Below the pieces are notes generated by a model. The model did not search any database. It was not told where the DNA came from and saw nothing but the letters and a program-made list of their open reading frames with translations. Below are positions 47,935 to 64,000 of a stretch of 64,000 nucleotides of DNA, in pieces. This DNA is from Corynebacterium accolens (GTDB lineage: Bacteria; Actinomycetota; Actinomycetes; Mycobacteriales; Mycobacteriaceae). The stretch's first letter is position 1; every line of letters starts with the position of its first letter. The position numbers were made by a program, and so were the translations under genes. Location of the stretch: NCBI RefSeq assembly GCF_023520795.1, contig NZ_CP046605.1, positions 434,001 through 498,000 on the forward strand, given 5' to 3'.

Positions 47935-49218
47935 ATGGCACGTCCATTGCCAACGACCAAGGCCCAAGTCTCGGGCCATAAATTTTTACGCCGGCGTGTG
48001 GAACACGGGCTCGTATTGGGCGATACCCGTATGATCCACGATCCGCTGGCTCGCCGCCGCAAGGCGATGATGTTCGGCGGAGTAGGAGTGGCCTTTTTAG
48101 CGGTCGGCTCGGGCCTTTTGGCTTGGCTGCAGCCGAGCCCGCAGCCAGGGGATGCGCCCATCGTGCGCTCGGAGCAAGGCCAGCTCTTCGTGGACGTCAA
48201 CGATACGTACCACCCCGTCTATAACCTGTCGTCCGCGCGGATCATCGCCGGCGAGGCGGCCGAGGCGCAGACCATTGGGGACGAGCATTTGCGCGAGGCC
48301 TCGTTGGGCACGCCGGTGGGGATTTCGGATGCTCCCGGCTATTTGGCCGCACCGGGCGAGACCCCGCAGCGCTCGTGGGCGGCGTGCCTTGCCGGCCACG
48401 ATGAGCAGCCCGCGGATAATCCCACCAGCATCGATGGCCAACAGGTGGCTCAAGAAGAGGTCATCGTGGTGGCGGATCCGCCGCAGGAGGGTTTTGGGGA
48501 GGAGCGCGCCGCGCTCGCAGAAACGGATGGTGTGCAGTGGCTGCTCACCGCGGACGGGCGCGTGCGCTTGCCCGATGCGCAGAGCACGGAGGGCCGGGTC
48601 ATCCGCCGCGGGATTGGCATCGACGGGAGCACCCATTCCTGGCCCGTTCCCGCGGAGTTGCTCAATGCCTTTGCGGAGCAGCCGCCGTTGACGTTTCCCG
48701 ATCCGCTGCCGGACATCATGGACACCGGGCAGGGTCAGTGGGCCCGGACGGACGACGGCGTCGCCGAGCTCTCCGCCACCCAGGCAGACATGTTGGTTAG
48801 CTACGGCGCGACGCGCAAAGAAGCCTCACCACAAGAGGTAGGCGCGCTTGCCGATGCCCCCTTAAACTTCCGCCTGCCCGCCACCACCTTCGACTTCGTT
48901 GGCCCAGATGAGGGCTGGATGTGCGCTGATAGCGATGGTGGGGCAGCGCTGGTGACTGAGAACCCCGGGACGGTAGCGCTCGCCGGAGAGGGTATAGCGG
49001 ATCGTTTTGGCGGGCTATCGGCAGGAGGAGTTGGTGTGGATACCGGGCATGGCTACCACGTTGTCTCGCCTACGGGGCAGCGCCATGCGGTGGACAATAA
49101 GGAACTCTTAGAGGCCCTCGGCACCGGTATTGGGGCGGAGGTTCCGTGGGAAATCATCCGGCTTTTGCCAGAGGCTTCGCGCTTGGACCGGGACGAAGCC
49201 CTGCAGGTCAGCCCCTAG
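47935..49218 (+). CDS. eccB: ESX-4 type VII secretion protein EccB
   Basis: 427 residues. A cytoplasmic N-terminus with the EccB hallmark (TKAQVSGHKFLRRRVEHGLV) is followed by one membrane helix (46-65) and a large extracytoplasmic domain. That domain has two cysteines (in AACLAG near 150 and WMCAD near 324) of the kind that form the conserved EccB disulfide. Core component of the membrane complex. Preceded by two copies of a TTTTCGGGG-type motif and GGGGGGAAA at the ribosome site. Overlaps the convergent mycP by 4 bp. Confidence 0.93.
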   Translation: MARPLPTTKAQVSGHKFLRRRVEHGLVLGDTRMIHDPLARRRKAMMFGGVGVAFLAVGSGLLAWLQPSPQPGDAPIVRSEQGQLFVDVNDTYHPVYNLSSARIIAGEAAEAQTIGDEHLREASLGTPVGISDAPGYLAAPGETPQRSWAACLAGHDEQPADNPTSIDGQQVAQEEVIVVADPPQEGFGEERAALAETDGVQWLLTADGRVRLPDAQSTEGRVIRRGIGIDGSTHSWPVPAELLNAFAEQPPLTFPDPLPDIMDTGQGQWARTDDGVAELSATQADMLVSYGATRKEASPQEVGALADAPLNFRLPATTFDFVGPDEGWMCADSDGGAALVTENPGTVALAGEGIADRFGGLSAGGVGVDTGHGYHVVSPTGQRHAVDNKELLEALGTGIGAEVPWEIIRLLPEASRLDRDEALQVSP

Positions 49219-50465
49219 GCCGACTTGGGTCGGCGTAGCCCGCGGGCAACCGCCAGGCCCGTCAGCAGCAGGACTAACCCGCCGAGCACCCACCCGGTGC
49301 GGCTCGCCGCTGGGGAGTGTTCGTCTTTGGCGGGTTGGATAGTCAGATCGCGCGCGGGTGCGGCATATTCGCCATCGATATGGGTAAGGGCGGCGAGCGG
49401 ATCGATGAAACCGTTGCCGGGCTCGCCGGCGGAAAGCAGCCGTTGACGTATATCGGCGGCGCTGGCGTCTGGGTAGCGCTCGGCTAATAGGGCGGCGGTG
49501 CCGCTGACTACCGGTGCCGCGAACGAGGTGCCGTGAAACTGTGCCAGGGAATCCTGTTGGTTCTTCCCGTCTGCCCAGCCACCGGCGGGATTAAGCGCTA
49601 AAGGGACGAAGCCGTGGGCGGCTAATTGTGGGCCATCGGCAGGCGTGAGGGAGTACTCGGCGAGTGCGTGGGCATCCTCTTGGGCGCTAACGGATAAAAC
49701 GGTCGGTGAATCAGCGGGAAAGACGTGATCGCCTTCTTCGCAGGTGCCGGAGGAAATATTGCCGGAGGCTGCGATGACTACCGCGCCGGCATCTTCTGCG
49801 TGGCCGAGCGCCTCATCCAAGCGGGAGCTATCGATGCGCCGCGCGGTCTTCTCTGGAACGCAGGACACCACGGAAATATTGATCACCCGGGCGTTGTCCT
49901 CCACGGCATGATCGATGGCGCGGGCCAATGTGTCGAGCGAGCCGGTGGTGCTGTCCTCGTCGGACTCGCCGGCCGTGCCATCGTATTGGCGATAATGCGC
50001 GCTGGTTTGGCGGATGGCGCGGATCTCAGCGCGTGGGGCGATGCCAATATCGTGCCCGGAGATGATGCCGGCGACGACGGTGCCGTGCAGGTCGCAATCT
50101 CGGTGCGGATCCGGTTCTTCCGGAGTGACCAGGTCCGCGCCTGCGGTGAGATTCGGCAGCTGATCGTGGTGGGCAACGCCGGTATCGATGACGGCTACCT
50201 TTATGCCCTCGCCCGTGGCAAAGGAATGCAGCTGGGAACGGTAGGCGCGCTGGTCTGCGGAAGGTTCTGGCGCTAGGGGAGATGGATGCGCGGTGGCGCA
50301 TTCCCGGTCCGGTTCCCGTGCGCCCGCGATGGGCGCGGTGGGAGCTCCTGTGATGAAATCGCCGGTTCCGGCGAGGACACATGCGGTAAGGGCGCAAGCA
50401 GCAAGCCTTGAACTGCCGTTGAACCCAGGTAGTGCGGAAAAACGACGCGAGCGGGTGTGGCCCAT
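49215..50465 (-). CDS. mycP: ESX-4 mycosin, subtilisin-type serine protease MycP
   Basis: 416 residues with a signal sequence and complete S8 triad: Asp94 in VIDTGV, His127 in DLHGTVVAGI and Ser314 in GTSFAAPVVSGTAAL. A C-terminal membrane helix (about 391-409) and short basic tail anchor it. Mycosins stabilise the type VII membrane complex and may process substrates. Its ATG shares a base with the eccD stop (TAATG), so eccD and mycP are co-translated on the minus strand. Confidence 0.95.
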   Translation of the reverse strand: MGHTRSRRFSALPGFNGSSRLAACALTACVLAGTGDFITGAPTAPIAGAREPDRECATAHPSPLAPEPSADQRAYRSQLHSFATGEGIKVAVIDTGVAHHDQLPNLTAGADLVTPEEPDPHRDCDLHGTVVAGIISGHDIGIAPRAEIRAIRQTSAHYRQYDGTAGESDEDSTTGSLDTLARAIDHAVEDNARVINISVVSCVPEKTARRIDSSRLDEALGHAEDAGAVVIAASGNISSGTCEEGDHVFPADSPTVLSVSAQEDAHALAEYSLTPADGPQLAAHGFVPLALNPAGGWADGKNQQDSLAQFHGTSFAAPVVSGTAALLAERYPDASAADIRQRLLSAGEPGNGFIDPLAALTHIDGEYAAPARDLTIQPAKDEHSPAASRTGWVLGGLVLLLTGLAVARGLRRPKSA

Positions 50466-51913
50466 TATCCCAGCCCCCTGATGAGTTCGAAGATCCCGGC
50501 GAGGTGCGCGGCAAGCGGCAGGCAGGCGGCGATGGTGAGGGACTCAATGCGTTCGAACCAGGCGATGGTCGTTGGTTCCACCTCGCTCATTTTGGCCGTC
50601 CACAGTGGTGCGCTTAGCATCGCGGTAAGCAGGAGGGCCGCAACCACCGTTGGCGCCCAAGCGCCAGCAAGCCCATCTACGGCAATCGCATGCACGGCGC
50701 ACAGACAGGCGGTGAGGCAGGCAACCATGGCGACGAGCATGAGAGCCCAGCTGGCAAGCACGCGCCCGTGACGCGCGGCGTGCATGACCACCGTTCCAGC
50801 AACGGAGACGCAGAGCGCTTGGACGAAGCCGAGCCCGGTTAATCCGGTGCCGAAAAGCACGGCGATGCGAGACCCGATGGTAGCGGCGGATCCCGCCTCG
50901 TCCACGGTCCCGTCCGTGGCCACGAGGGTGCCGGTGCCAGTGAAACTGAGCGCGATAAGGGCCGGGATGAGGCAGAGCGCGATTGCGCAGCAGATGCCCT
51001 CGTAGGCGTACCCGGCGCGGGTGGCGCGATTGTCCACATCGGGCTGGAGTTCATCAGAGACGGCAAGGTCTTGGCCCGCGGTGGGCAATTGCGGCACCTT
51101 GAGCCCCGCGGTGGCGATGGTCAGCGCGGGGGCGGTGGCAAGCACAATGACGCCTGCGATAACGGTGCCTGCGGCCGCCGCGGTACCGTGGCTCGTGCCG
51201 ATGCCCGAATTTCCACTGAGCCCAGGAAGCAGGTAGCTCACGGACGCAATGAGCACTAGCCCGGCGATGGTGAGCGCGCCGGAGGTAATGCGTACCGTGC
51301 TTAACCGGGTGAGGTGGCAGGCCAATAACGCCGCGAGCAGGGTGGCGCTGGTGGTGAGGGCGGCATAGGGGGCATCGGCAAGCGCGGGCGAAATAAGTGC
51401 CCAGCCGCTCGCCGCCCCTGCCGCCAGGGTGAGCATGACAAGCGATAGCGCCCGCGTCCACAGTGCGAGCACGAAGGCCGCGATGGCGAGCCCGGCGCAG
51501 GCCACCGCTGGGAGCGAGAGTACCCAAGTGACGGCGAAGGCCGCGGCGAGCCCGGCCCACGCCCAGACGATGGGAATGGCGGAGGTGGTGTCGTCGCGGC
51601 TCTGGGCGGCGAGGGATTCGGCGGCGTCGCGGATTACGGGCGCGGGCCGCTCCTCGCGCGGGGCGAGCACCAGGATGGAGCCTTCCGCTAGCGGCGTGGC
51701 GGCAAGCGGTGCGGTGAGGTCGATGGTGCGCCCAGAGGCCGTGCTGGCGCGCCACGGCGAGGTGATCGCGGGTGCATCGACAAGGTCAGTAAGTTCTGCC
51801 ATGAGCTCGCCGAGGCTGGAGCTTAATGGCAATGCCACGTCTGCTTCCTTGTGGAAGGAATCTGCGTGGATGCGGATGGTAAGGCGCATGTGATGCGCCG
51901 TTGGAGCGGTCAT
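50465..51913 (-). CDS. eccD: ESX-4 type VII secretion integral membrane protein EccD
   Basis: 482 residues from the ATG at 51913 (GGGGG 5 bases upstream); the further upstream openings lack a ribosome site. A ubiquitin-like cytoplasmic N-terminal domain (RLTIRIHADSFHKEADVALP) is followed by about eleven membrane helices. EccD dimers form the channel rim of the type VII complex. Divergent from eccC, as in mycobacterial ESX-4. Confidence 0.92.
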   Translation of the reverse strand: MTAPTAHHMRLTIRIHADSFHKEADVALPLSSSLGELMAELTDLVDAPAITSPWRASTASGRTIDLTAPLAATPLAEGSILVLAPREERPAPVIRDAAESLAAQSRDDTTSAIPIVWAWAGLAAAFAVTWVLSLPAVACAGLAIAAFVLALWTRALSLVMLTLAAGAASGWALISPALADAPYAALTTSATLLAALLACHLTRLSTVRITSGALTIAGLVLIASVSYLLPGLSGNSGIGTSHGTAAAAGTVIAGVIVLATAPALTIATAGLKVPQLPTAGQDLAVSDELQPDVDNRATRAGYAYEGICCAIALCLIPALIALSFTGTGTLVATDGTVDEAGSAATIGSRIAVLFGTGLTGLGFVQALCVSVAGTVVMHAARHGRVLASWALMLVAMVACLTACLCAVHAIAVDGLAGAWAPTVVAALLLTAMLSAPLWTAKMSEVEPTTIAWFERIESLTIAACLPLAAHLAGIFELIRGLG

Positions 51914-52065
51914 AATTCCCCCGAATTGTCTCATGATTGTGGGCATCCCCCTTGCCCAATGCCACATATTGTGGCTTACTGGTGGCGTCGTGTCCACCGC
52001 AGCGCGGGGAATCTTGGCAGGGGGCCAAGAGCGCTAAGCGTGTGGATCGGGGGAGGATTTTACCC
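51914..52065. promoter_or_regulatory. Divergent eccD-eccC control region with stacked inverted repeats
   Basis: 152 bp with three short inverted repeats: GCCACA-TAT-TGTGGC (51961-51975), GGTGG/CCACC (51981-51985 and 51994-51998) and CTTGGC/GCCAAG (52013-52018 and 52024-52029). A CGGGGGA motif lies at both ends, just before eccD and eccC. No clear -35/-10 pair. These may be operators or RNA hairpins. Confidence 0.45.
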
Positions 52066-55000
52066 ATGCTTGGGATCGGGGAAACTCACATCGTGGAGCC
52101 ATTGTCCATGCCGCTTCGGGACGCGCCACCGCCGCTTCCCACCGGCACCATCGAGGCAGAGGAAGTTCCGGAAGCGGTGCGCCCGCAGCCGGTGCCGCTG
52201 GTGCGCCTGCTGCTGCCCATCGTGATGATCGCCGCGATGTTGGGCATGGTGGCGCTGATGGTGTTGGGCGCGGGCGATTCGCGGCATATCAGCCCGGTAT
52301 CCCTGATGTTTCCGCTGATGATGCTGGCCAGTATGGCCATGATGTTTGGGCCGCACAATAGCGGGCAGGACCCGGATGAAACCCGGCGGACCTACTTGCG
52401 CCACATTAAGGCGCTGCGGGAAAAGGCGCTGGATAATGCCGGTGCGCAGCGTGCGCACGAGTTGTATCGGCACCCGGATCCGGCGGGGCTGGAACCGCTG
52501 GTGGGATCGCGGCGCATGTGGGAGCGCGGGCCTGATGATCCGGATGCCTTGGAGGTGCGCGTGGGCACTGGGCCCACCACGTTGTGCACGCCCATCAACG
52601 TGCCTGATTCTGGTGCGACCGAGGACCTGGACCCGGTCTGTGCGGTGAGCATGCGCCAGGCCATCAAGGCGGTGGGTACCGTGCCGGATCTCCCGGTGGT
52701 GATCCAATTGCAGGCCTTTAGGTTTTTATCCTTTACCGGCGATAATGCCCGCGATACGGTGCGCGCCCTCGTCATGCAGCTAGCCCTGGCGCACGGTCCC
52801 GAGACCATCGGGGTTGAGGCCATCGGCGGCGAGTGGGAGTGGCTAAAATGGCTGCCGCATACGCGGGAGCCGGATAAGGCGCGGTTTCGCATTGTGCTTG
52901 TCGATGCCCTCCTTACCACCGGCACCGAAGACTTCTTCCACGGCGATTCTTATACCACCGTCATTGAGGTAGGCGGTGCGCCGTCATCCGCGTTGAGCCT
53001 GCGTGCGGAACAAGAAGGTTTGTGCCTCGTCGCGGCGGATACCCTGCAGGCGGTGACGGCCGCAGGCGTGGAAGAACTGGGAACACCCGATTATTTGGGC
53101 GCCGCCGCGGCCACGATTATGGCCCGCCGAATGGCGGTCTTCCGGCGCCCCGATAGCACCTCCGGGCGCCGGGGCAATGATTTGCTGGGGCTGCTTGGTT
53201 ACAGCGGCGTGGATGAATTGGCCGCCAGCGGCATGTGGCACGGGCGCGATGGTGCCTCGCGGCTCATGGTGCCCATCGGCATCGATTCCATCGGGCAGCC
53301 GGTGACCGTGGATCTCAAAGAATCCGCGCATGGCGGAATGGGGCCGCACGGCCTATGCATCGGGGCGACGGGCAGCGGTAAATCTGAGCTCCTGCGCACC
53401 CTGGTGACCGCACTTGCCGCCACGCATAGCCCGGATGAACTCAATCTCGTGTTGGTAGATTTCAAGGGTGGTGCGACCTTCCTAGGCTGTGATCGCCTGC
53501 CGCATACTTCTGCGGTCATTACCAACCTTGAAGAAGAATCCACCCTGGTAGAGCGCATGTACGATGCCATTTCCGGGGAGATGAACCGCCGCCAAGAACT
53601 CCTGCGCACCGCCGGCAACTTTGCCAATGTGGGCGAGTACAACGCTTCTGCGGATGCCGTGCGGGACTATGGCCCCTTGCCGGCGCTGGTCATCGTCGTC
53701 GACGAATTTTCCGAGCTCTTGGGCCAGCACCCGGACTTCGCCGAGCTCTTCGTTGCCGTGGGGCGCTTGGGGCGCAGCCTCCACGTGCACCTTCTTTTGG
53801 CCTCGCAAAGGCTCGAGGAAGGGCGCTTGCGGGGGCTAGATTCCCACTTGTCCTACAGAATCGGCCTGAAAACCTTTTCCTCCGCCGAATCCCGCCAGGT
53901 CCTTGGCGTGACCGATGCCTACCACCTTCCCGGCCAACCCGGCGCCGGTTACCTGAAATCCGATGCTGAGGACCTCACCCGGTTTCAGGCCTCCTACGTA
54001 TCAGGGCCGCTCGCGCGCCGGGCTGCACCTAGCTCGGGGATGCACGCGGCCACGGATCGGGATGGTAACTCCGCAGGCCCGCCACGCCGGGTGGAGCTTT
54101 TTACAGGATGGGCGCAGGACGATGCCGCTGCACAGAGTTCTCCTGCTGTGGTGATGGATGAATCCACATCGGTTCTTACTGAGGTGGTTCGCGCCGCCGG
54201 CGAAGAGGCCGCCGCGCGCGGCCAGGAGGCCCACCGCATTTGGCTGCCTCCGCTGCCGCCGGTCATTGAACTATCGTCCCTCGATATGGAGGGCGCGGAG
54301 TCCACCGCAGCGGAACTATCCGCGCCGATCGGGATTATCGATAGGCCGTACTACCAGCGCCAAGACCAACTAGTCATCGACTTTCACCAACACGGCGGCC
54401 ACCTTGCCCTGTGCGGGGGACCGCAATCCGGCAAGTCCGGTGCGCTGCGCACGATAGTCTCCTCCTTGGCGCTTAACCGGCGGCCGGAAGATATCCGCTT
54501 TTATGTCATCGACTTGGGCGGCGGGCAGTTAGCGGCCCTAGACCGGTTACCGCACGTTGCCGGGGTAGCCGGGCGCGAAGAAGGCGAAAAGATCCGCCGC
54601 ATTGTCGATGAGGTCGCCGGGTTTATTCGCCGGCCGGAATCGCGCGAGACCTTCTTGATTATCGATGGCTGGCACCACATCGGTCCATCCAATGCGGAGT
54701 TTGAGGATTTAGCCGAATCCATCACGGATATCGTTGCGGACGGTGCCTCCGCCAACGTCCACGTTGTCATCGCGACCTCCCGGTGGACCACGATGCGGCC
54801 GGCGATTAGGGATCTCATTGCGAACCGCCTCGAGCTGCGCTTGGGTGAGGCACTCGATTCGCTTATTGACCGCAAGCTGCAGCAAAAACTGCCCAGCGCG
54901 CCGGGCAGGGGGCTGACACAGGCGGGCGAAAATATGCTGCTCGCGCATACCTCGAATCAAGATATTGCCCATATCTGCCGCGTGCATGCGAACGCCGTTC

Positions 55001-55755
55001 CCGCCCCGCGCTTGAAGATGCTGCCGGCGGTCCTGACCCCAGAGGCGCTCGCCGCCCATGGCGAAGCACCTACTGGCGGCATCCCGTGGGGCATCGGCGG
55101 GCGCGACCTTTCCACCTTGGCGTGGAATCCGGAGCGCGAGCCGCACCTAGTTGCCATCGGCGCCCAAGGCTGCGGCAAGTCCAATTTCTTGGCACAGATA
55201 ATGCGCGGGATTAGTAGCCTTCCGCGGGAGGCGGCGCGGCTGGTGGTCATCGATCAGCGCCGCGCCCACCTGGGCACGCTGGATCAGGACATGGTGGCGG
55301 CCTATGCCGCAACGCAATCAAGTGCGCAGGAGGCAATCGTTAATACCGTGCGCACGCTGGAACAACGCTTGCCGGGGCCGGATATCACCCCAGAGCAACT
55401 TGCCGCCCGCGATTGGTGGGAGGGCCCGGATATTTACGTGGTGATCGATGATGCGGACTTGGTCAGCGATATAGCCTTGGCACCCTTAATCGATCTTCTG
55501 CCTCATGCGCGGGACATCGGCTTGCACATGGTCATCGCCCGAAAATCCGGCGGCATTGGCCGGGCGCTGTTTGGCCAATTCTTTTCCGCGGTGCGCGATC
55601 TGCAACCCGCATTCCTGCTTTTCGATGCCGACCGCGACGAAGGCACCATCTTCGGCCTCAAGCCCAGCCACCAGCCGCCCGGGCGCGGGCAGTGGAGCAT
55701 CCGCGGCGAAAACCTGGGAATCGCCCAGGTGGTTTACGGGGAAGGAGAAGAATAA
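52066..55755 (+). CDS. eccC: ESX-4 type VII secretion ATPase EccC
   Basis: 1229 residues from the ATG at 52066, with GGAGG 10 bases upstream. Two membrane helices (about 45-68 and 78-95) are followed by three FtsK/SpoIIIE-like ATPase domains. Their P-loops are GATGSGKS near 431, GPQSGKS near 785 and GAQGCGKS near 1031. Walker B strands are LVLVDFKGG and LVIVVDEFSEL (first domain), FYVIDLGGG (second) and LVVIDQRRA and YVVIDDADLV (third). It is a single fused protein, as usual for ESX-4. Recruits WXG100 substrates through the last domain and powers export. The stop is directly followed by the next gene's ATG. Confidence 0.96.
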   Translation: MLGIGETHIVEPLSMPLRDAPPPLPTGTIEAEEVPEAVRPQPVPLVRLLLPIVMIAAMLGMVALMVLGAGDSRHISPVSLMFPLMMLASMAMMFGPHNSGQDPDETRRTYLRHIKALREKALDNAGAQRAHELYRHPDPAGLEPLVGSRRMWERGPDDPDALEVRVGTGPTTLCTPINVPDSGATEDLDPVCAVSMRQAIKAVGTVPDLPVVIQLQAFRFLSFTGDNARDTVRALVMQLALAHGPETIGVEAIGGEWEWLKWLPHTREPDKARFRIVLVDALLTTGTEDFFHGDSYTTVIEVGGAPSSALSLRAEQEGLCLVAADTLQAVTAAGVEELGTPDYLGAAAATIMARRMAVFRRPDSTSGRRGNDLLGLLGYSGVDELAASGMWHGRDGASRLMVPIGIDSIGQPVTVDLKESAHGGMGPHGLCIGATGSGKSELLRTLVTALAATHSPDELNLVLVDFKGGATFLGCDRLPHTSAVITNLEEESTLVERMYDAISGEMNRRQELLRTAGNFANVGEYNASADAVRDYGPLPALVIVVDEFSELLGQHPDFAELFVAVGRLGRSLHVHLLLASQRLEEGRLRGLDSHLSYRIGLKTFSSAESRQVLGVTDAYHLPGQPGAGYLKSDAEDLTRFQASYVSGPLARRAAPSSGMHAATDRDGNSAGPPRRVELFTGWAQDDAAAQSSPAVVMDESTSVLTEVVRAAGEEAAARGQEAHRIWLPPLPPVIELSSLDMEGAESTAAELSAPIGIIDRPYYQRQDQLVIDFHQHGGHLALCGGPQSGKSGALRTIVSSLALNRRPEDIRFYVIDLGGGQLAALDRLPHVAGVAGREEGEKIRRIVDEVAGFIRRPESRETFLIIDGWHHIGPSNAEFEDLAESITDIVADGASANVHVVIATSRWTTMRPAIRDLIANRLELRLGEALDSLIDRKLQQKLPSAPGRGLTQAGENMLLAHTSNQDIAHICRVHANAVPAPRLKMLPAVLTPEALAAHGEAPTGGIPWGIGGRDLSTLAWNPEREPHLVAIGAQGCGKSNFLAQIMRGISSLPREAARLVVIDQRRAHLGTLDQDMVAAYAATQSSAQEAIVNTVRTLEQRLPGPDITPEQLAARDWWEGPDIYVVIDDADLVSDIALAPLIDLLPHARDIGLHMVIARKSGGIGRALFGQFFSAVRDLQPAFLLFDADRDEGTIFGLKPSHQPPGRGQWSIRGENLGIAQVVYGEGEE

Positions 55756-56934
55756 ATGTCTACAGAAACGCCTATCTCCGCAGCAACGGCAACGATTACG
55801 GTGACCGTTATGGATGCGGCCACCATCTTTGAAGGCCCAGAAACCGTGTACCGCTACGATCTTGCTGGGACCGGCATCGTAGAAGGCAAGGCACTCGGCC
55901 ACGTCATGGACCAGATCGCGAAGATCGCTGGATCCGCTTGGCCGGACGTGGACGTATCCGTCATCGCGGATCCCTCTGGCACCGCCGTCTCCCGCGAGGC
56001 CGTCACCATTCTTACCCGCCAACTCGATGTAGCCGGCGCCCGCGTGCGACAGCAGGAAGCAACACCCGCACCGGAATCAACTCCAGCACGAGAGGCTGAA
56101 TCGGCTGCGGGCGAGGCAGGGGCACCGTCGGCAGTAGCGGCGGCATCGGCACTTGCGGATGCCCTAGAATCCGCGCCCACCGCCCAGATGGATATTTCCA
56201 CGGGCCGCACGGAAACAACGGCTGACCCGGGAACTGGTGCGCGAGCAGAAAAAGGGCAGGGGACAGGCACGCGGTGGGCCGATAAGCTGCGCGGCTGGAT
56301 AGGTGCCATCGATATGTTTCATGTCGCCATCGTCGTGGTGATCCTCGCCGTCGTCGGCGCCTCGTGGTGGGCCATGGGGGCGAATGCGTCCGATAATGAG
56401 GACGGCGGCGAGGCCGGCACCGCCGCTGGAAGTGCCACCGCTGCGAGCGCCGCCGACTCCGTGCCAAAGGAAGAATCCGGTGGTGGCAGCGATGGCAACG
56501 CGGACGCGGCTGGCGACGCGGGCGGTGACGGCGAGCTCAACCCAGGCGAAAAGCGCCTTGATATCGAAGGGCTCTCCGTCGTCCTTCCCACCGGATTTCA
56601 GGCCACTGTGGAGGAAGGCCTAGTGACCGCCACAGGAGAAGACCCTGATTTAAGGATTCTCTTAGCGGCGGACTCGCTTTTTAACGTGCCGGCCAAGGCG
56701 CTCTTTGGTGAAATCAAAGCGCAGGTAGACAAGGATCCGGAACTGCGCGATGTATCCGAGGACGCAGGGCGTTTGCACTATATAGAAGACCCCGGCGATG
56801 GCTCCGTTGTGGAATGGACCATCTGGGAAGATACCGGGCACCACATGTCGGTGGGGTGCCATACCCGTCATAATGCCAATGCCGTGCAAAAAGCCGCGTG
56901 CCGGATGGCCACCGAATCCCTGAGTAAGAAATAA
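55756..56934 (+). CDS. Type VII secretion-associated protein (Rv3446c family)
   Basis: 392 residues. An N-terminal soluble domain (TATITVTVMDAATIFEGPET) comes first, then an Ala/Glu-rich linker (about 100-175). A membrane helix (about 187-207), a low-complexity Gly/Ala/Asp stretch and a C-terminal domain of about 130 residues (RLDIEGLSVVLPTGFQATVE) follow. Position between eccC and esxU matches Rv3446c of the mycobacterial ESX-4 locus, and the architecture fits the TIGR03931 family. Function unknown; it starts immediately after the eccC stop. Confidence 0.82.
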   Translation: MSTETPISAATATITVTVMDAATIFEGPETVYRYDLAGTGIVEGKALGHVMDQIAKIAGSAWPDVDVSVIADPSGTAVSREAVTILTRQLDVAGARVRQQEATPAPESTPAREAESAAGEAGAPSAVAAASALADALESAPTAQMDISTGRTETTADPGTGARAEKGQGTGTRWADKLRGWIGAIDMFHVAIVVVILAVVGASWWAMGANASDNEDGGEAGTAAGSATAASAADSVPKEESGGGSDGNADAAGDAGGDGELNPGEKRLDIEGLSVVLPTGFQATVEEGLVTATGEDPDLRILLAADSLFNVPAKALFGEIKAQVDKDPELRDVSEDAGRLHYIEDPGDGSVVEWTIWEDTGHHMSVGCHTRHNANAVQKAACRMATESLSKK

Positions 56935-56955: not shown

Positions 56956-56987
56956 CGGGAACCAAATGGGTCTGAGCACAGTCCAAT
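56956..56987 (+). promoter_or_regulatory. Shared ECF-like promoter upstream of esxU-esxT
   Basis: CGGGAACC (56956-56963) and AGTCCAAT (56980-56987), with 18 bases between GGGAAC and GTCCAA. The block extends to GGTGAG (56991-56996) and aligns without gaps with 62871-62911 upstream of the post-glmM gene pair. GGGAAC at -35 with a GTC-type -10 is the pattern of extracytoplasmic-function sigma factors. Which sigma factor is unknown. Confidence 0.65.
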
Positions 56988-57067
56988 AACGGTGAGAAAG
57001 CACAGAAGCTTTTTCGGGGGAAATCACACTCAACATCTCTTCCCGCCCTAAGGAGGGGCGCACTGTT

Positions 57068-57382
57068 ATGTCTCAGACTTTTAAGACACAAGCCGATGTC
57101 ATGGTCTCTACCGCCGGCCGCGTCGATAACACCAATGACGAAGTCCAAGGCGAGCTCACCCGCCTGCAGGGTGTAGTGGATTCTGTCCGCGGCAGCTGGG
57201 CCGGCCAGGCACAGGTTTCATTCGATAACTTGATGCAGCGCTACAACACCTCCGCGCAGCAACTGCGCGAGGCATTGACCTCGATTTCTGAAAACATCCG
57301 CAGCAATGCCCACAACTTTGACAACGTCGAAGCCGAAAACACCCAGGCCTTCTCCAATGTTGGCGGCGGCCTCGCCCTGTAA
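57068..57382 (+). CDS. esxU: WXG100 protein EsxU-like
   Basis: 104 residues, helix-turn-helix with the WXG motif in RGSWAGQAQVSF (Trp44). Order (upstream of the EsxT-like gene) and sequence pattern match EsxU. AAGGAGGGG is 11 bases before the ATG. Expected to form a heterodimer with the next gene product and to be exported by the ESX-4 complex. Own promoter region rather than simple readthrough from eccC. Confidence 0.9.
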   Translation: MSQTFKTQADVMVSTAGRVDNTNDEVQGELTRLQGVVDSVRGSWAGQAQVSFDNLMQRYNTSAQQLREALTSISENIRSNAHNFDNVEAENTQAFSNVGGGLAL

Positions 57383-57426: not shown

Positions 57427-57714
57427 ATGTCCGAAATTAAGTACCAATTCGGCGCCATCTCTTCTGCCGCAGCCGATATCAACGCCACCTCCGGCCGCAT
57501 CAACAGCACCTTGGCCGACCTCAAATCCCGCCTCCAACCCATGGTGAGCACCTGGGAAGGTGAGTCCGCAGTGGCTTATAACCAGGCACAGGCCAAGTGG
57601 GATAAGGCGGCACAGGAACTCAATACCGTGCTGGCAACCATCTCCAAGACCGTGTCCCAGGGCAATGACGCCATGAGCGATGTTAACCGCCGCGCCGCCG
57701 CTAGCTGGGGTTAA
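57427..57714 (+). CDS. esxT: WXG100 protein EsxT-like
   Basis: 95 residues with WXG in STWEGESAVAYN (Trp43). The second helix reads QAKWDKAAQELNTVLATISK and the C-terminus NRRAAASWG, both close to the EsxT pattern. GAAAGGAAG lies 10 bases upstream. Partner of EsxU. A terminator follows before rplM. Confidence 0.92.
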   Translation: MSEIKYQFGAISSAAADINATSGRINSTLADLKSRLQPMVSTWEGESAVAYNQAQAKWDKAAQELNTVLATISKTVSQGNDAMSDVNRRAAASWG

Positions 57715-59386: not shown

Positions 59387-61312
59387 TTATTCATCGTCTT
59401 CTACGGCCTTGCCCTTGATTTTCTTCTGTGCAAAGTCCTTGAGCTCGGCGCGGCGCTCTTCGCGGAGGGCTGCCTGCTCTGCGAGGTACTCATCCGATGC
59501 GTTGATGGTGTACCACTCATGGAGGTACGGGTCATTGTTTTCAATTTCAGCCCCGGCACCGTGGTTTTCTGGAACGGCAGAAGAGCTGAATACGAAGTCG
59601 CCATTGTGTTCTTGGAGGCCCAAGTGGGTGCCGCGCTCAATGGCGGCATGGGCATATTTCCTGCGCAGTATTGCAGGGTCGCGCGCCAAGTCCTTGCCCC
59701 AGGCCACCATGATGCCGATGAGGATGAAGGTAAACGGCAGCGAACTGGAGACCATGATGGATTGCAGGCCGCTCAGGGCATCCTTGCCGGCGATAAGCAG
59801 CAGAGACAAGGAAATGCCACCCAGGGCAACGCCCCAAATAACGGAAATCGATGTCGAGGGGATTGGTCGGCCTGATTGGGACATGGAGCCCATGACGTTG
59901 GTAGCGGAGTCAGCGGCTGTATTGAAGAAGACGACCACAGCGAGGAGGACGATGACCGTGGTGATACTAGATAGCGGCAGCGATCTCATGAGATCGAACA
60001 TCACATTCTCGCCGGAACCTTCGATCTCGATTCCGTCTCCGTCCAGGTGGGTCTTAATTGCGGTGGCACCAAAGATGACGTACCAGAAAAGCGAAAGGGT
60101 GGTGGGCACGAGCATGATGACGAAGACGAATTCGCGAATGGTGCGCCCGCGGGAAATCTTCGCAATGAACATGCCGACGAAGGGCGACCAGGAAATCCAC
60201 CACGCCCAGTAGAGCATGGTCCATGCGGTGACGAATTCCTTCTCCGGCTCACCCTGGGAGGCGGAGAGGGACATCATGTCTTCGAAGTGCTTGAAGAACT
60301 GCAGCAGGGAGGCGGGAAGCAGGTCCAGAATATAGAGCGTCGGCCCAGTGATGAGCACGAAGACCGCGAGTCCGATGACCAGGCCCATGTTGATATTGGA
60401 CAGGATGCGGATGCCGCGCTTGATGCCGGACATTGCGGAAAGAATGAAAAGGATGGTGAGGATCGTAATGATCACCACCATGATTCCGTTGCCTTCGAGG
60501 GGCTTGCCGGTAAGGATCGAGGTTCCCGTGCGGATCTGCAGGGCACCGATACCCAGCGAGGTCGCCGTGCCGAAGAGGGTGACCAACACTGCGAAGATAT
60601 CGACGATCTTTCCAAATACCCGGTTATTCGAATCCGTAATGAGGGGTTCAAATAGCGAGGAAATAAGCGGGATACGGCCGCGTCGATAAGCGGCATAGGC
60701 AAGTGCGCCGCCCACCAGCGCAAAGATCATCCACGGCAACGTAGCGTGGTGCAGAACCGCCTGGGCAAAGGCAGGAAGGATGGCTTCTTGGCTGCCGGAT
60801 TCGACACCGGAGAGATAAGGCGGTGGAGTCAAGAATAGGGCAAGCGGCTCCATCGGGCCGTAGAAGACCAGGCCGATTCCCATACCGGCGGCAAAGAGCA
60901 TGGCGATCCAGGCGTTCCGGGAGAAATCGGGCTTGGAATCATCGGCGCCGAGCTTAATTTTGCCGGTTGGGGCGATGGCGATTGTCAGCAGGAATGCCGT
61001 GGTGGCGATCATGATGATCGTAAAAAGCCATCCAAAGTTTTGGACGACCCACGCCCGCATGGTGCTTCCTGTGTTGGCCAGGTTATCTGGTGCGATGATG
61101 GCCCACAGGATAATGCCAACTGTTGATGCCAGCGCCACCGCAAAGACAGTTTTATTGGTCTTGAAATCGGCGCGGGTGTTTTCGACACTTACTCCGGGAA
61201 TGAGGGCTGGATGAATAGCGCGTTCCCCAGAAGCGGCTTTCGCAATGGCTGATCGTGCCTTTTGCGAGGTAGTTTCAGGTGACTTGTCACCTGAAGATCT
61301 AGGTTCGTTCAT
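59387..61312 (-). CDS. BCCT family osmolyte transporter (betaine/carnitine/choline type)
   Basis: 641 residues with twelve predicted membrane helices. Hallmarks are the glycine-rich MGIGLVFYGPMEPL segment and the BCCT signature around YWAWWISWSPFVGMFIAKIS, whose tryptophans bind the quaternary amine. The N-terminus (about 50 residues) and C-terminus (about 90, Lys/Glu-rich) are long and hydrophilic, as in corynebacterial carriers where the tail senses osmotic stress. It could be BetP-, EctP- or LcoP-like; sequence alone does not settle which. Second osmolyte uptake system of the window. Confidence 0.93.
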   Translation of the reverse strand: MNEPRSSGDKSPETTSQKARSAIAKAASGERAIHPALIPGVSVENTRADFKTNKTVFAVALASTVGIILWAIIAPDNLANTGSTMRAWVVQNFGWLFTIIMIATTAFLLTIAIAPTGKIKLGADDSKPDFSRNAWIAMLFAAGMGIGLVFYGPMEPLALFLTPPPYLSGVESGSQEAILPAFAQAVLHHATLPWMIFALVGGALAYAAYRRGRIPLISSLFEPLITDSNNRVFGKIVDIFAVLVTLFGTATSLGIGALQIRTGTSILTGKPLEGNGIMVVIITILTILFILSAMSGIKRGIRILSNINMGLVIGLAVFVLITGPTLYILDLLPASLLQFFKHFEDMMSLSASQGEPEKEFVTAWTMLYWAWWISWSPFVGMFIAKISRGRTIREFVFVIMLVPTTLSLFWYVIFGATAIKTHLDGDGIEIEGSGENVMFDLMRSLPLSSITTVIVLLAVVVFFNTAADSATNVMGSMSQSGRPIPSTSISVIWGVALGGISLSLLLIAGKDALSGLQSIMVSSSLPFTFILIGIMVAWGKDLARDPAILRRKYAHAAIERGTHLGLQEHNGDFVFSSSAVPENHGAGAEIENNDPYLHEWYTINASDEYLAEQAALREERRAELKDFAQKKIKGKAVEDDE

Positions 61313-61507: not shown

Positions 61508-62851
61508 ATGACTCGACTATTTGGAACCGATGGAGTTCGCGGCCTCGCGAATAAAAAGCTGACTCCCATTTTGGCCTTGACGCTGGGACAAGCGGCTGCA
61601 GAGGTCTTTACTGCGCAGCGCGAATCTTATGAGCGCCGCCCCTTGGCAATCATCGGCCGTGACCCCCGCGTATCGGGCGAAATGCTCGATGCCGCTATCG
61701 CCGCAGGCTTGGCGTCGCGCGGCGTGGACGTTGTGCGCGTGGGGGTGCTTCCTACCCCAGCCATCGCCTTTTTGACGGATGATTACGGAGCGGATCTCGG
61801 CGTGATGATCTCGGCCTCCCATAACCCGATGCCAGATAATGGCATTAAGTTCTTCTCCGCAGGCGGCAAAAAGCTGCCGGATAGCGTGGAAGATAAGATT
61901 CAGGCCGCGATGGATAACCTCGTTGAGGAGGGCCCGACGGGCACCAAGCTGGGCCGCATTATCTCGGAGGCGCCCGATGGGCGTGAGCGCTATCTAGCGC
62001 ACCTGAAGGAGGTCGTCTCCACTGACTTGAGCGGCATCAAGGTGGTCGTGGATACGGCCAATGGCGCGGCCTCAAAGGTTGCTCCGAGTGCCTATGAAGC
62101 AGCAGGCGCTGAGGTCATCCCGATCTACCACCGGCCCAATGCCTTTAATATCAACGAAAATTGTGGTTCCACCCATATCGAAAAAGCCCAGGCAGCGGTG
62201 CTCGAGCATGGTGCCGATTTGGGTCTTGCCCACGATGGCGATGCGGACCGCTGCCTCGCCGTCGATGCCGAAGGCAACGTCGTCGATGGCGATCAGATCA
62301 TGGCCTTGCTCGCGGTAGGGATGAAGGAAGACAATGACCTGCGCTTTAACACGCTCGTGGCCACGGTCATGTCCAATTTGGGCCTGACGCTTGCCATGGA
62401 GGAGCAAGGCATTGAGGTCCGCCACGCGGCGGTGGGCGATCGCTATGTTCTCGAAGAGCTCCACCGCGGCGATTTCTCCTTGGGTGGCGAGCAATCCGGG
62501 CACGTCGTGCTTCCCGATGACTCCACTACCGGCGATGGCACCCTCACCGGCCTTTCCATCATGGCGCGTATGGCCAAGTCCGGAAAGAGCCTGAAGGAAT
62601 TGGCCTCCGTGATGACCGTATTGCCGCAGGTGCTCATCAACGTTCCGGTATCCAATAAGGCGGCGATCATGGATTCTGCCGAGGTCAAGCAGGCCATCGT
62701 CGAGGCAGAAGAAGAGCTCGGGGAAACCGGCCGCGTCCTGCTCCGACCCTCTGGCACCGAAGAGCTGTTCCGCGTCATGGTGGAAGCTGCAGAAGAGGAA
62801 CATGCCCGCAAGGTGGCGGGTAGGCTTTCTGCCGTCGTCGCCTCGGTATAG
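61508..62851 (+). CDS. glmM: Phosphoglucosamine mutase
   Basis: 447 residues. The phosphoserine loop ([17 protein letters not shown]), the metal-binding DGDADR, the sugar-binding GGEQSGH and the phosphate-binding RPSGTE loop are all intact. Converts glucosamine-6-phosphate to glucosamine-1-phosphate for UDP-GlcNAc and peptidoglycan synthesis. Synteny with rplM-rpsI-glmM next to ESX-4 is the same as in mycobacteria. Confidence 0.97.
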
Positions 62852-62870: not shown

Positions 62871-62902
62871 CGGGAACCATTTGGTATAAACCCCAGTCCA
62901 AT
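62871..62902 (+). promoter_or_regulatory. Shared ECF-like promoter after glmM
   Basis: CGGGAACC (62871-62878) and AGTCCAAT (62895-62902), same spacing as in the esxU promoter, followed by GGTGAG (62906-62911). In the gap between glmM and the uncharacterised gene at 62947. Confidence 0.65.
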
Positions 62903-62946
62903 GAAGGTGAGCACACTTACCGCATATGGATTTGGGGATTATACCG

Positions 62947-63261
62947 ATGTCTGAGGTTTTTCTTCGCCCCGCAGAGGCGATGTCCGCACTACAACAAGCT
63001 ATAAGCGCCAACGATGAACAGCGCCAAGCCCACCGCGCCGATGTTCCAGACTTTCCCGTTGCCGCGGCTGGGCGGAATTTTTCCGGCCACGGGGAGCGCA
63101 TACGCAGCATCCTCGCGCGCATTCATGACAATGGAACGTGGCGCTTAGACAATATCTCTGCCACGGGCCAGGCAGCGCACGATCAGATGCGCGCATTCGC
63201 CACGTACGATGCCGGCTTTAGCCGCTCCTTTGCAGGAGAAAGCGGAAAGGCAGTGGACTAA
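62947..63261 (+). CDS. Small helical hypothetical protein, possible type VII-linked factor
   Basis: 104 residues from the ATG at 62947 (GGGGA 8 bases upstream); an ATG at 62926 would add 7. No signal peptide or membrane segment. Predicted mainly helical, with a single Trp in the middle (HDNGTWRLDNISATGQAAHD) and ending YDAGFSRSFAGESGKAVD. Size and helical character recall WXG100 or EspC-type (DUF2580) proteins, but no canonical WXG is present. The shared promoter block with esxU-esxT supports a link. The stop overlaps the next start (TAATG). Function unknown. Confidence 0.65.
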   Translation: MSEVFLRPAEAMSALQQAISANDEQRQAHRADVPDFPVAAAGRNFSGHGERIRSILARIHDNGTWRLDNISATGQAAHDQMRAFATYDAGFSRSFAGESGKAVD

Positions 63262-64000
63262 TGAGTACGTTGACTAAGTCGCTTTTAGGGGATTATTCCG
63301 CCGCCATTTCGCAGTTCCAATTGGCCTGCCTGGGAAATTACTCCGGCCCCAGCATGCCCTTGGGGCTTCTGAGTGAGCTCATCAGCGCGGTAGATGGAAT
63401 CGCCCCACAAAACATTCTGCGCCATACCATTTCCGCGGTGGGCGGCAATCTCCCGCACGGTGGTGGAAAGGGGCTTGCGGATTTCTTGCGCACTGACGAC
63501 TCCGATGTTGCTAACGGCACCTTGCGCGAGCACCTGACCGGCATTCAAAAAGACTTTGATATCCACCGCGATGAAGGCAAGCAGCTTACTGACTCTGCCA
63601 AGCAATGCTCCGGCGCTATTTCCGATGTCGTCGATACCTCCGATACCGCACTCACCGAGCTGATTTCTGCGGTAATCCCACTGCTCAATATCTTGTCCAT
63701 GGTGGCTACCAGGCACCCGCTGGCCAAGTTCATTATTCCCATCGTTTCCACCATTGGTTCGAAAATTATCGATGACACCAATGACTCCATCGCTAGCACG
63801 TGCCGGGACCGCGATGATGCCATTGAATCCTGCTATGACGAGTTTGAGTCGCGCTGCGAATGCGTCTGTGAGCGGCCTCTTCCTGAGGAATGCCCCGAGC
63901 CGGCAGAGGCCGAGGAGGATTCCTGCCCACCACCGGTGGAAAAGTGCCCAGATACGCCAGCTCCCACGCGTCCGATGCCCGATGGCGGGGGCGACACCAC
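63261..64000 (+). CDS. Cys-rich hypothetical protein, 3' end beyond the window
   Basis: An uninterrupted frame from the ATG at 63261 to the window end (246 codons), starting STLTKSLLGDYSAAISQFQL. It overlaps the preceding stop by one base. Residues 1-130 look helical. A hydrophobic stretch (about 131-168, LTELISAVIPLLNILSMVAT) may enter a membrane. Residues 181-229 hold eight cysteines in a Glu/Pro-rich setting (for example RCECVCERPLPEECPEP), followed by a Pro/Gly-rich tail. No signal peptide. I recognise no family. Co-transcribed with the previous gene, so it may be exported by, or work with, ESX-4. Confidence 0.7.
   Translation, partial: MSTLTKSLLGDYSAAISQFQLACLGNYSGPSMPLGLLSELISAVDGIAPQNILRHTISAVGGNLPHGGGKGLADFLRTDDSDVANGTLREHLTGIQKDFDIHRDEGKQLTDSAKQCSGAISDVVDTSDTALTELISAVIPLLNILSMVATRHPLAKFIIPIVSTIGSKIIDDTNDSIASTCRDRDDAIESCYDEFESRCECVCERPLPEECPEPAEAEEDSCPPPVEKCPDTPAPTRPMPDGGGDT

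Follow-up and report, generated by a model that had tools for sequence, protein, structure and literature searches.

The DNA analysed here, called the window, is a 64,000-nucleotide stretch of the forward strand of the Corynebacterium accolens genome (NCBI RefSeq assembly GCF_023520795.1, contig NZ_CP046605.1, positions 434,001 to 498,000). Near its right end, two uncharacterised genes that we call P1 and P2 follow a conserved upstream neighbour on the plus strand (61508..62851), which we take to be glmM from its sequence. P1 (62947..63261, plus strand) encodes 104 amino acids (aa) from the ATG at 62947 and carries the C-terminal pattern hxxxD..h...h at F84, D88, F91 and F95. P2 occupies 63261..64000 of the window on the same strand and ends approximately 1045 bases past it, encoding 594 aa with 23 Cys; a third small open reading frame (ORF), P3, lies after P2 (L006:4046-4324). 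Upstream of P1, a promoter-like block spans 62872..62901 on the plus strand (GGGAACC at 62872-62878, 16 spacer bases and AGTCCAA at 62895-62901) and is followed by GGTGAG at 62906-62911. The same block is present at 56957..56986 (plus strand, GGTGAG at 56991-56996) before esxU (57068..57382, plus strand; PF06013 2e-20) and esxT (57427..57714, plus strand; PF06013 9.6e-21), two genes of WXG100 proteins that also match TIGR03930 and accompany an ESX-4 (type VII secretion) gene cluster. The goal of this work was to follow the block and the gene pair through the genus and its relatives.

The promoter block and its genes

The 41 bases at positions 62871-62911 can be aligned gap-free with those at 56956-56996, with 30 of 41 identical; both copies are identical in CGGGAACC, AGTCCAAT and GGTGAG, and 18 bases separate GGGAAC from GTCCAA in each. 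The next-best 41-mer in the window, both strands included, has 24 identities, and the best in 60 simulated first-order Markov windows has 27, so that the alignment and its control confirm the ungapped match, the common sub-blocks and the spacing described in the original prediction. In the 2.47-Mb genome of the strain, assembled as one contig, the pattern GGGAACCANNYGG-N9-CAGTCCAA occurs four times exactly and twice with 2-3 mismatches (never for the backward control), and the GGAACC-AGTC spacer is N16 in all four exact copies. The block combines a GGAAC-type -35 with a GTC-type -10 at fixed spacing, as is found in promoters of extracytoplasmic function (ECF) sigma factors.

The GGGAACC-N16-AGTCCAA core is a genus-wide promoter-like element. 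When 121 evenly drawn Corynebacterium genomes were scanned on both strands with the family pattern GGGAACC-N16/17-AGTCNAA, 419 strict matches were found (200 + 219 on the two strands) vs 10 (7 + 3) for the backward pattern. At least one match is present in 81 of the 121 genomes and four or more in 55; the search of related genomes suggested with the original prediction thus came out in favour of the block.

For the genes downstream we chose 14 genomes, mostly complete, from the 58 of 121 that match a P2 N-terminal query. They hold 97 strict sites vs 3 control matches; the block precedes the pair in 14/14 by construction, because the genomes were chosen after it had been seen there. Downstream DNA was read for 91 of the 97 sites, the remaining six being pair sites, and 83 of the 91 stand before a member of one of twelve gene families (a classification that covers the sites of the 14 genomes and not the 121-genome scan, with reference sequences drawn partly from the classified sites, so that some sites count themselves). 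The families are an ORF205 family (13/14 genomes), in several genomes followed by a RelA/SpoT-like gene; esxU-esxT (11/14); an NlpC/P60 operon with its own small partner (10/14); a SAF protein that matches RcpC/CpaB weakly (9/14); the P1-P2 pair (eight genomes, plus the six sites not re-read); an HNH/GmrSD-type nuclease (6/14); a DUF3558 lipoprotein and/or a 550-609-aa protein (6/14); the methyladenine glycosylase Tag (5/14); eccC, RecA and an AbiEi-like family (3/14 each); and the prepilin peptidase PilD (2/14). The pair therefore has the same promoter as esxU-esxT and, in three genomes, eccC. The recurrence of the block before this defined gene set supports both the ECF-type promoter and the regulation in common with esxU-esxT that had been predicted.

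The distance from block to gene is also informative. Counting any ATG or GTG at 7-8 bases past the block, which need not be a proven start, we found one at all sites of the NlpC/P60 (10/10), SAF (9/9), HNH (6/6) and prepilin peptidase (2/2) families, at 5/6 AbiEi-like, 4/5 Tag and 2/4 eccC sites, at 1/6 DUF3558 and 1/13 ORF205 sites, and at none of the RecA (0/3), pair (0/8) or esxU-esxT (0/11) sites. This is the position expected of leaderless transcripts, and by this measure the block behaves like a promoter. The pair and esxU-esxT start further downstream, after purine-rich stretches that could putatively bind ribosomes.

The NlpC/P60 gene of the C. accolens genome (L007:5606-6793; G000:C1:575605-576792) lies beside upp and a SatS-like gene and has a 92-aa P1-like partner gene; the arrangement looks like a second ESX-4 partner-cargo operon. 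An ORF205 locus (L008:6629-8255) encodes a 205-aa protein without a known family and then the RelA/SpoT-like gene. At the DUF3558 loci (L155:226-2548, L138:404-2230), the 550-609-aa protein ends in PGVIGxW[VA]RG in all five read; with its Trp near the end, it is possibly a further ESX cargo.

The ESX-4 cluster of the window comprises eccB (47935..49218, plus strand; PF05108 9.7e-55 at G000:C1:481950-482702), a mycP-like subtilisin-type gene (49215..50465, minus strand), a gene for an eccD-like membrane protein (50465..51997, minus strand) and eccC (51937..55755, plus strand, with its true start probably downstream); the last three are ORFs whose names we assume from their positions and general knowledge of such clusters. 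A 392-aa ORF with an Ala/Glu-rich middle (55756-56934) lies between eccC and esxU, and a 641-aa ORF resembling a membrane transporter (59387-61312, minus strand) lies in the interval between ribosomal genes and glmM. In three other genomes (G043 511472, G089 758504, G116 592566), a strict block on the strand opposite to eccB stands no more than approximately 150 bases ahead of the EccB match, pointing away from it. EccB is present in 120 of the 121 Corynebacterium genomes, the exception (G114) being an 88% complete draft of approximately 160 contigs that carries a P1 gene. Co-occurrence of the pair with ESX-4 is uninformative because EccB is nearly universal; the refuting case named in the original prediction, a species with the pair but no ESX-4, could therefore not decide against it.

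The candidate sigma factor

Eight sigma-70 family genes are found in the C. accolens genome. Six of them were compared with NCBIfam, where the best models were SigE, SigH, SigK (below cut-off), a SigC-type model pair, ShbA and SigM; the ShbA-matching gene is presumably SigD, and the remaining two genes are taken, on sequence, as SigA and SigB. The gene nearest the SigM model (145 bits, below the cut-off of 190) lies before trxB, which follows after approximately 130 bases, an interval for which no ORF of at least 60 aa is listed (L014:1423-3030). This sigM-trxB order differs from what we assume to be the mycobacterial one.

SigM is most likely the sigma factor that would read the block, an assignment proposed here and not in the original prediction. 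It is made by analogy, because the gene set resembles the list of mycobacterial SigM targets: M. tuberculosis SigM is reported to activate esx-4 and esxEF-cpnT genes (PMC10117145, PMC8593097), and in M. smegmatis contact-activated SigM is described as driving ESX-4, a cell wall hydrolase and a nuclease (PMC9514802, citing a 2018 paper). The same resemblance argues against another reading, in which the block serves SigC, SigD or SigK as a promoter, or is bound by an unrelated regulator, and the link to SigM is coincidental. That reading seems to us rather improbable. The -35 of the C. glutamicum SigC promoter (GGGAACT/CGACTA) is also GGGAAC, but its -10 is CGACTA and not AGTCCAA, and the reported SigH (GGAAt/GTTgaa) and SigE (mostly GGAAC-N16-CGTT) promoters have GTT. 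Further points in favour of a factor other than SigM are the score of the sigM gene below its model cut-off, the scope of our promoter comparison, which covered SigC, SigE and SigH, and the outcome of a 2017 study, in which, alone among the sigma factors of C. glutamicum, SigM had no promoter that could be confirmed.

The P1-P2-P3 operon and its counterparts

Of the 58 genomes with a P2 N-terminal match, glmM was found in 57, and P1 follows it in all of these (57/57; 57/58 loci overall), with an open P2 beginning next to P1 in 56/57. The conserved pair adjoining glmM that had been expected was thus borne out. The P1 profile detects 110 of the 121 genomes, and a start motif of the FxEFARxFRxRTAxRxxEFE type, like that of P3, comes after P2 in 46/53; many P3 relatives end in a VxSVLRR- or VxGVLRR-type tail. 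GGGAACC-N15/17-NGTC is present in 45/57 orthologous pair promoters (reversed and complement controls of this motif, 0/57). The strict block precedes the pair in 22 of 23 named loci, e.g. C. macginleyi, C. tuberculostearicum, C. aurimucosum and C. striatum, and was not found before the pair of C. flavescens. The start of the window P2 is 97-98% identical to four loci labelled Corynebacterium sp. or uncultured. A literature search by P1 and P2 locus-tag names gave no related paper by title among the matches listed.

P1 had been predicted to be a WXG100/EspC-like partner, and the two halves of that proposal fared differently. Against 25 corynebacterial P1 sequences (the P1 alignment holds 25 of the 57), the Pfam models PF10824 (EspC) and PF06013 (WXG100) gave 0/25 matches at E up to 0.1. 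A WXG100 identity for P1 was rejected, there being no WxG and no PF06013 match. The EspC likeness was upheld by profile comparison through counterparts in other genera: in hhalign, P1 and these counterparts align with a probability of 84.7% (E 6.6e-6, 62 columns), vs at most 1.6% in 60 column-shuffled controls. We therefore call P1 EspC-like and not a member of the family, because the direct Pfam test failed. P1 also aligns with the NlpC partner family of nine sequences (95.1%, E 3.5e-8; at most 0.9% in 40 shuffles), which itself gave no match to EsxU (0.4%).

Small partners in type VII secretion systems carry a C-terminal export motif, HxxxD/ExxhxxxH or YxxxD/E (PMC10117145), and P1 has a pattern of this type. 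The D/E column is kept in 56/57 P1, the full HxxxD/ExxhxxxH is found in 36/57 (shuffle mean 12.8, maximum 22) and [YF]xxxD/E in 32/57 (shuffle maximum 19). This pattern and the profile similarity of P1 to both the NlpC partner and the EspC-family counterparts also bear on a third explanation, that P1, P2 and P3 are intracellular helpers of cell-wall precursor synthesis in the glmM-glmS area that borrow an ECF promoter. The position of P1 after glmM in 57/58 loci would suit such helpers, as would a downstream gene in the C. accolens genome that we take to be glmS-like, on the same strand past two other ORFs. A Cys/Pro-rich P2 and a promoter common to ESX-4 genes fit it poorly, and we hold it to be very improbable.

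Outside Corynebacterium, the P1 profile gave 2 matches over 200 genomes of the order, our own included. A gene of approximately 95-100 aa nevertheless follows glmM in 10 of 13 glmM loci of other genera of the family (two run past the locus end); the other three have no such small gene within approximately 1.5 kb. We infer that these loci belong to Mycobacteriaceae. The ten genes were picked by eye, after the motif had been seen at four of the loci, and they begin 41-52 bases after glmM in six cases and 724-1246 in four. GGAACC-N16/17-CGTC, which differs from the corynebacterial promoter in a single -10 base, lies within 120 bases upstream of 10/10 (nine with N16; shuffle mean 0.012). The N16 form fits what we take to be the M. 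tuberculosis SigM consensus, and we count this against a factor other than SigM. All seven counterparts in the alignment (7 of the 10 genes) match PF10824 at E up to 0.1, the best at 2.8e-11 and the first one below the Pfam cut-off. In six loci of one genus, presumably Mycobacterium, the small gene is followed by a Pro/Ala-rich gene, and five of these can be read to the end (443-481 aa).

The N-terminal 200 residues of corynebacterial P2 form a conserved family with no known relative in the libraries tried. They are followed by Cys/Pro/Glu-rich spacers, a Gly-rich transmembrane-like segment and, in the window P2, the C-terminal ARKAGQW. Counts were made on 53 P2 of 300 aa or more, leaving out G025 (no glmM match) and G063, G091, G102 and G114 (P2 absent, short or cut). 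A transmembrane-like segment lies after residue 220 in 42/53, in 38 of them Gly-rich. The strict tail [RKH]KAGxW ends 44/53, with an exact RKAGQW end in 21/53 and one Ser after the Trp in three P2; the looser form [RKHQ][KR][AVTM][GSR]xW fits 52/53. The alignment of the P2 family contains 22 P2 ends. The reading of P2 as a known toxin or defence protein was rejected, since nothing exceeded the curated cut-offs in Pfam/NCBIfam and PADLOC gave no match; a Pfam PARP match (2.4e-05, far below cut-off) and PDB matches look like low-complexity or designed-helix hits.

Because the tails are kept in an otherwise drifting P2, a receptor is suggested. The candidates are EccC, the ATPase of ESX-4, on the model of other ESX substrates, and a PDZ protease. 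The second candidate leads to an alternative that we regard as unlikely: rather than act outside as an effector, exported P2 would regulate intramembrane proteolysis, its tail entering the PDZ domain of a site-2 protease and feeding back on sigma activation. The mycobacterial gene Rv3439c, which we take to be two places after glmM and preceded by Rv3440c, would correspond to P2 in the glmM-small gene-P2 arrangement seen in the six genomes above. According to a review (PMC6963305), Rv3439c is Ppr2, a protein caught in a two-hybrid screen with the PDZ domain of Rip1, a site-2 protease of M. tuberculosis, and PDZ domains of bacterial envelope proteases have been suggested to read C-terminal residues. 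Tails are kept within each lineage ([RKH]KAGxW in 44/53; TPCE[IV]AAxxLPQVGx in 5/5 read of the six loci), but they differ between genera (in yet another genus, xEAGPL is the tail of two P2), and the last residue of the other-genus tail is not hydrophobic. The two-hybrid result comes second-hand, and the P2 used in it shares no detectable similarity with the corynebacterial one: homology between corynebacterial P2 and P2 of one other genus was rejected (hhalign 0.4%). It also counts against this alternative that in the C. accolens genome no ORF of at least 60 aa is listed from sigM to trxB.

A proposed SigM and ESX-4 regulon

We propose as the probable reading that the block is an ECF promoter, most likely of SigM, which switches on ESX-4 and its cargo, and that the P1-P2-P3 operon belongs to this regulon as ESX-4 cargo. 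SigM, once freed, would transcribe esxU-esxT (and eccC in some species) together with the cargo genes. P1 and the NlpC partner would be EspC-like escorts, P1 with its C-terminal export pattern. P2 would be the larger cargo exported with P1, a Cys/Pro-rich envelope protein spanning or marking the envelope, whose tail might dock onto a receptor, either EccC at the export stage or a PDZ protease later on, and P3 would be a small helper. The NlpC/P60 hydrolase would be a co-expressed second cargo that opens the wall, with the same small partner and cargo design. Such a set may have a role when cells touch one another, remodel their walls or exchange DNA. What the computations show directly is that the promoter recurs with its gene set, that the gene order is conserved, that the partners are homologous and that the P2 tail is kept; the sigma factor, export through ESX-4, docking and purpose are our inferences.

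Several observations weigh against this proposal. The strict pattern was not found in 40 of the 121 genomes, a scan of the whole window gave no such block upstream of eccC, and 12 pair promoters are without the motif (six have a GGAACC form, four a looser form and two neither). Eight of the 91 classified sites fall outside the twelve families, and RecA and the prepilin peptidase are represented in just 3 and 2 of the 14 genomes. P1 itself matches no Pfam family; its EspC link spans 62 columns and comes from profile comparison only, EsxU and P1 gave no match in hhalign (2.9%), and neither did the NlpC partner and the other-genus counterparts (2.5%). The rejected P2 homology and the restriction of the promoter comparison to SigC, SigE and SigH count on the same side. 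Published C. glutamicum data are also at odds with it: an earlier microarray suggested 23 SigM-dependent genes in oxidative stress, apparently not ESX genes; four of these suggested promoters were SigH-dependent when retested in the 2017 study; and the core genes of the type VII secretion system were reported to be Fur-repressed.

Among known systems, the nearest is the mycobacterial SigM/ESX-4 regulon, in which an ECF factor drives esxU-esxT and ESX-4, with a wall hydrolase and a nuclease made on contact in M. smegmatis. The corynebacterial set differs in its -10, which is AGTC[CT]AA at most sites seen, in that no anti-sigma ORF was seen beside sigM, and in its additional members (the glmM-linked operon, the NlpC/P60 operon with the P1-like partner, ORF205/RelA-like, SAF, Tag, RecA and prepilin peptidase). 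P1 resembles the EspC family (PF10824) and WXG100 partners in its length of approximately 100 aa, a conserved AAGRxF centre and the C-terminal hxxxD, but matches neither Pfam model and is without WxG. EsxE-EsxF-CpnT of M. tuberculosis likewise combines small secreted partners with a large cargo under SigM control with ESX-4, as reported; no toxin domain was found in P2, and we do not claim membership. Rv3440c-Rv3439c, presumably after glmM, offers a small gene and a Pro/Ala-rich gene with a SigM-type promoter, and agrees with the corynebacterial operon in position, promoter and architecture alone, the sequences being without detectable homology and the tails different. EssH of the Staphylococcus aureus type VIIb system is a dedicated cell wall hydrolase serving type VII secretion, described as a CHAP protein with a Sec signal, unlike the corynebacterial NlpC/P60 protein, which has a P1-like partner gene and is tied to ESX-4 by its promoter only.

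The link between SigM and ESX-4 is already known in mycobacteria. A literature search on corynebacterial SigM with type VII secretion, WXG100 or competence gave no such regulon by title or abstract start among the matches listed; as far as this search goes, the corynebacterial regulon and promoter, the P1/NlpC-partner family and the P2 tail are new. A wider and more doubtful idea is that Corynebacterium SigM controls DNA exchange through a contact- or competence-like programme round ESX-4, which would take in EsxU/T, NlpC/P60 with its EspC-like partner, the HNH nuclease, the prepilin peptidase, the CpaB-like SAF protein, RecA, Tag and P1-P2-P3, with the lineage-specific P2 tail serving as a hitherto undescribed tag, either for recognition by ESX-4 or for docking to a PDZ domain.

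The 419 strict sites in the 121 genomes are candidates for answering which promoters SigM uses in C. glutamicum, and the gene list names new likely ESX-4 cargo, with the small partner and cargo design suggested at least twice. If the repair, nuclease and prepilin-peptidase members are genuine, the link between SigM/ESX-4 and DNA exchange described in M. smegmatis (PMC9514802) would extend to a second genus.

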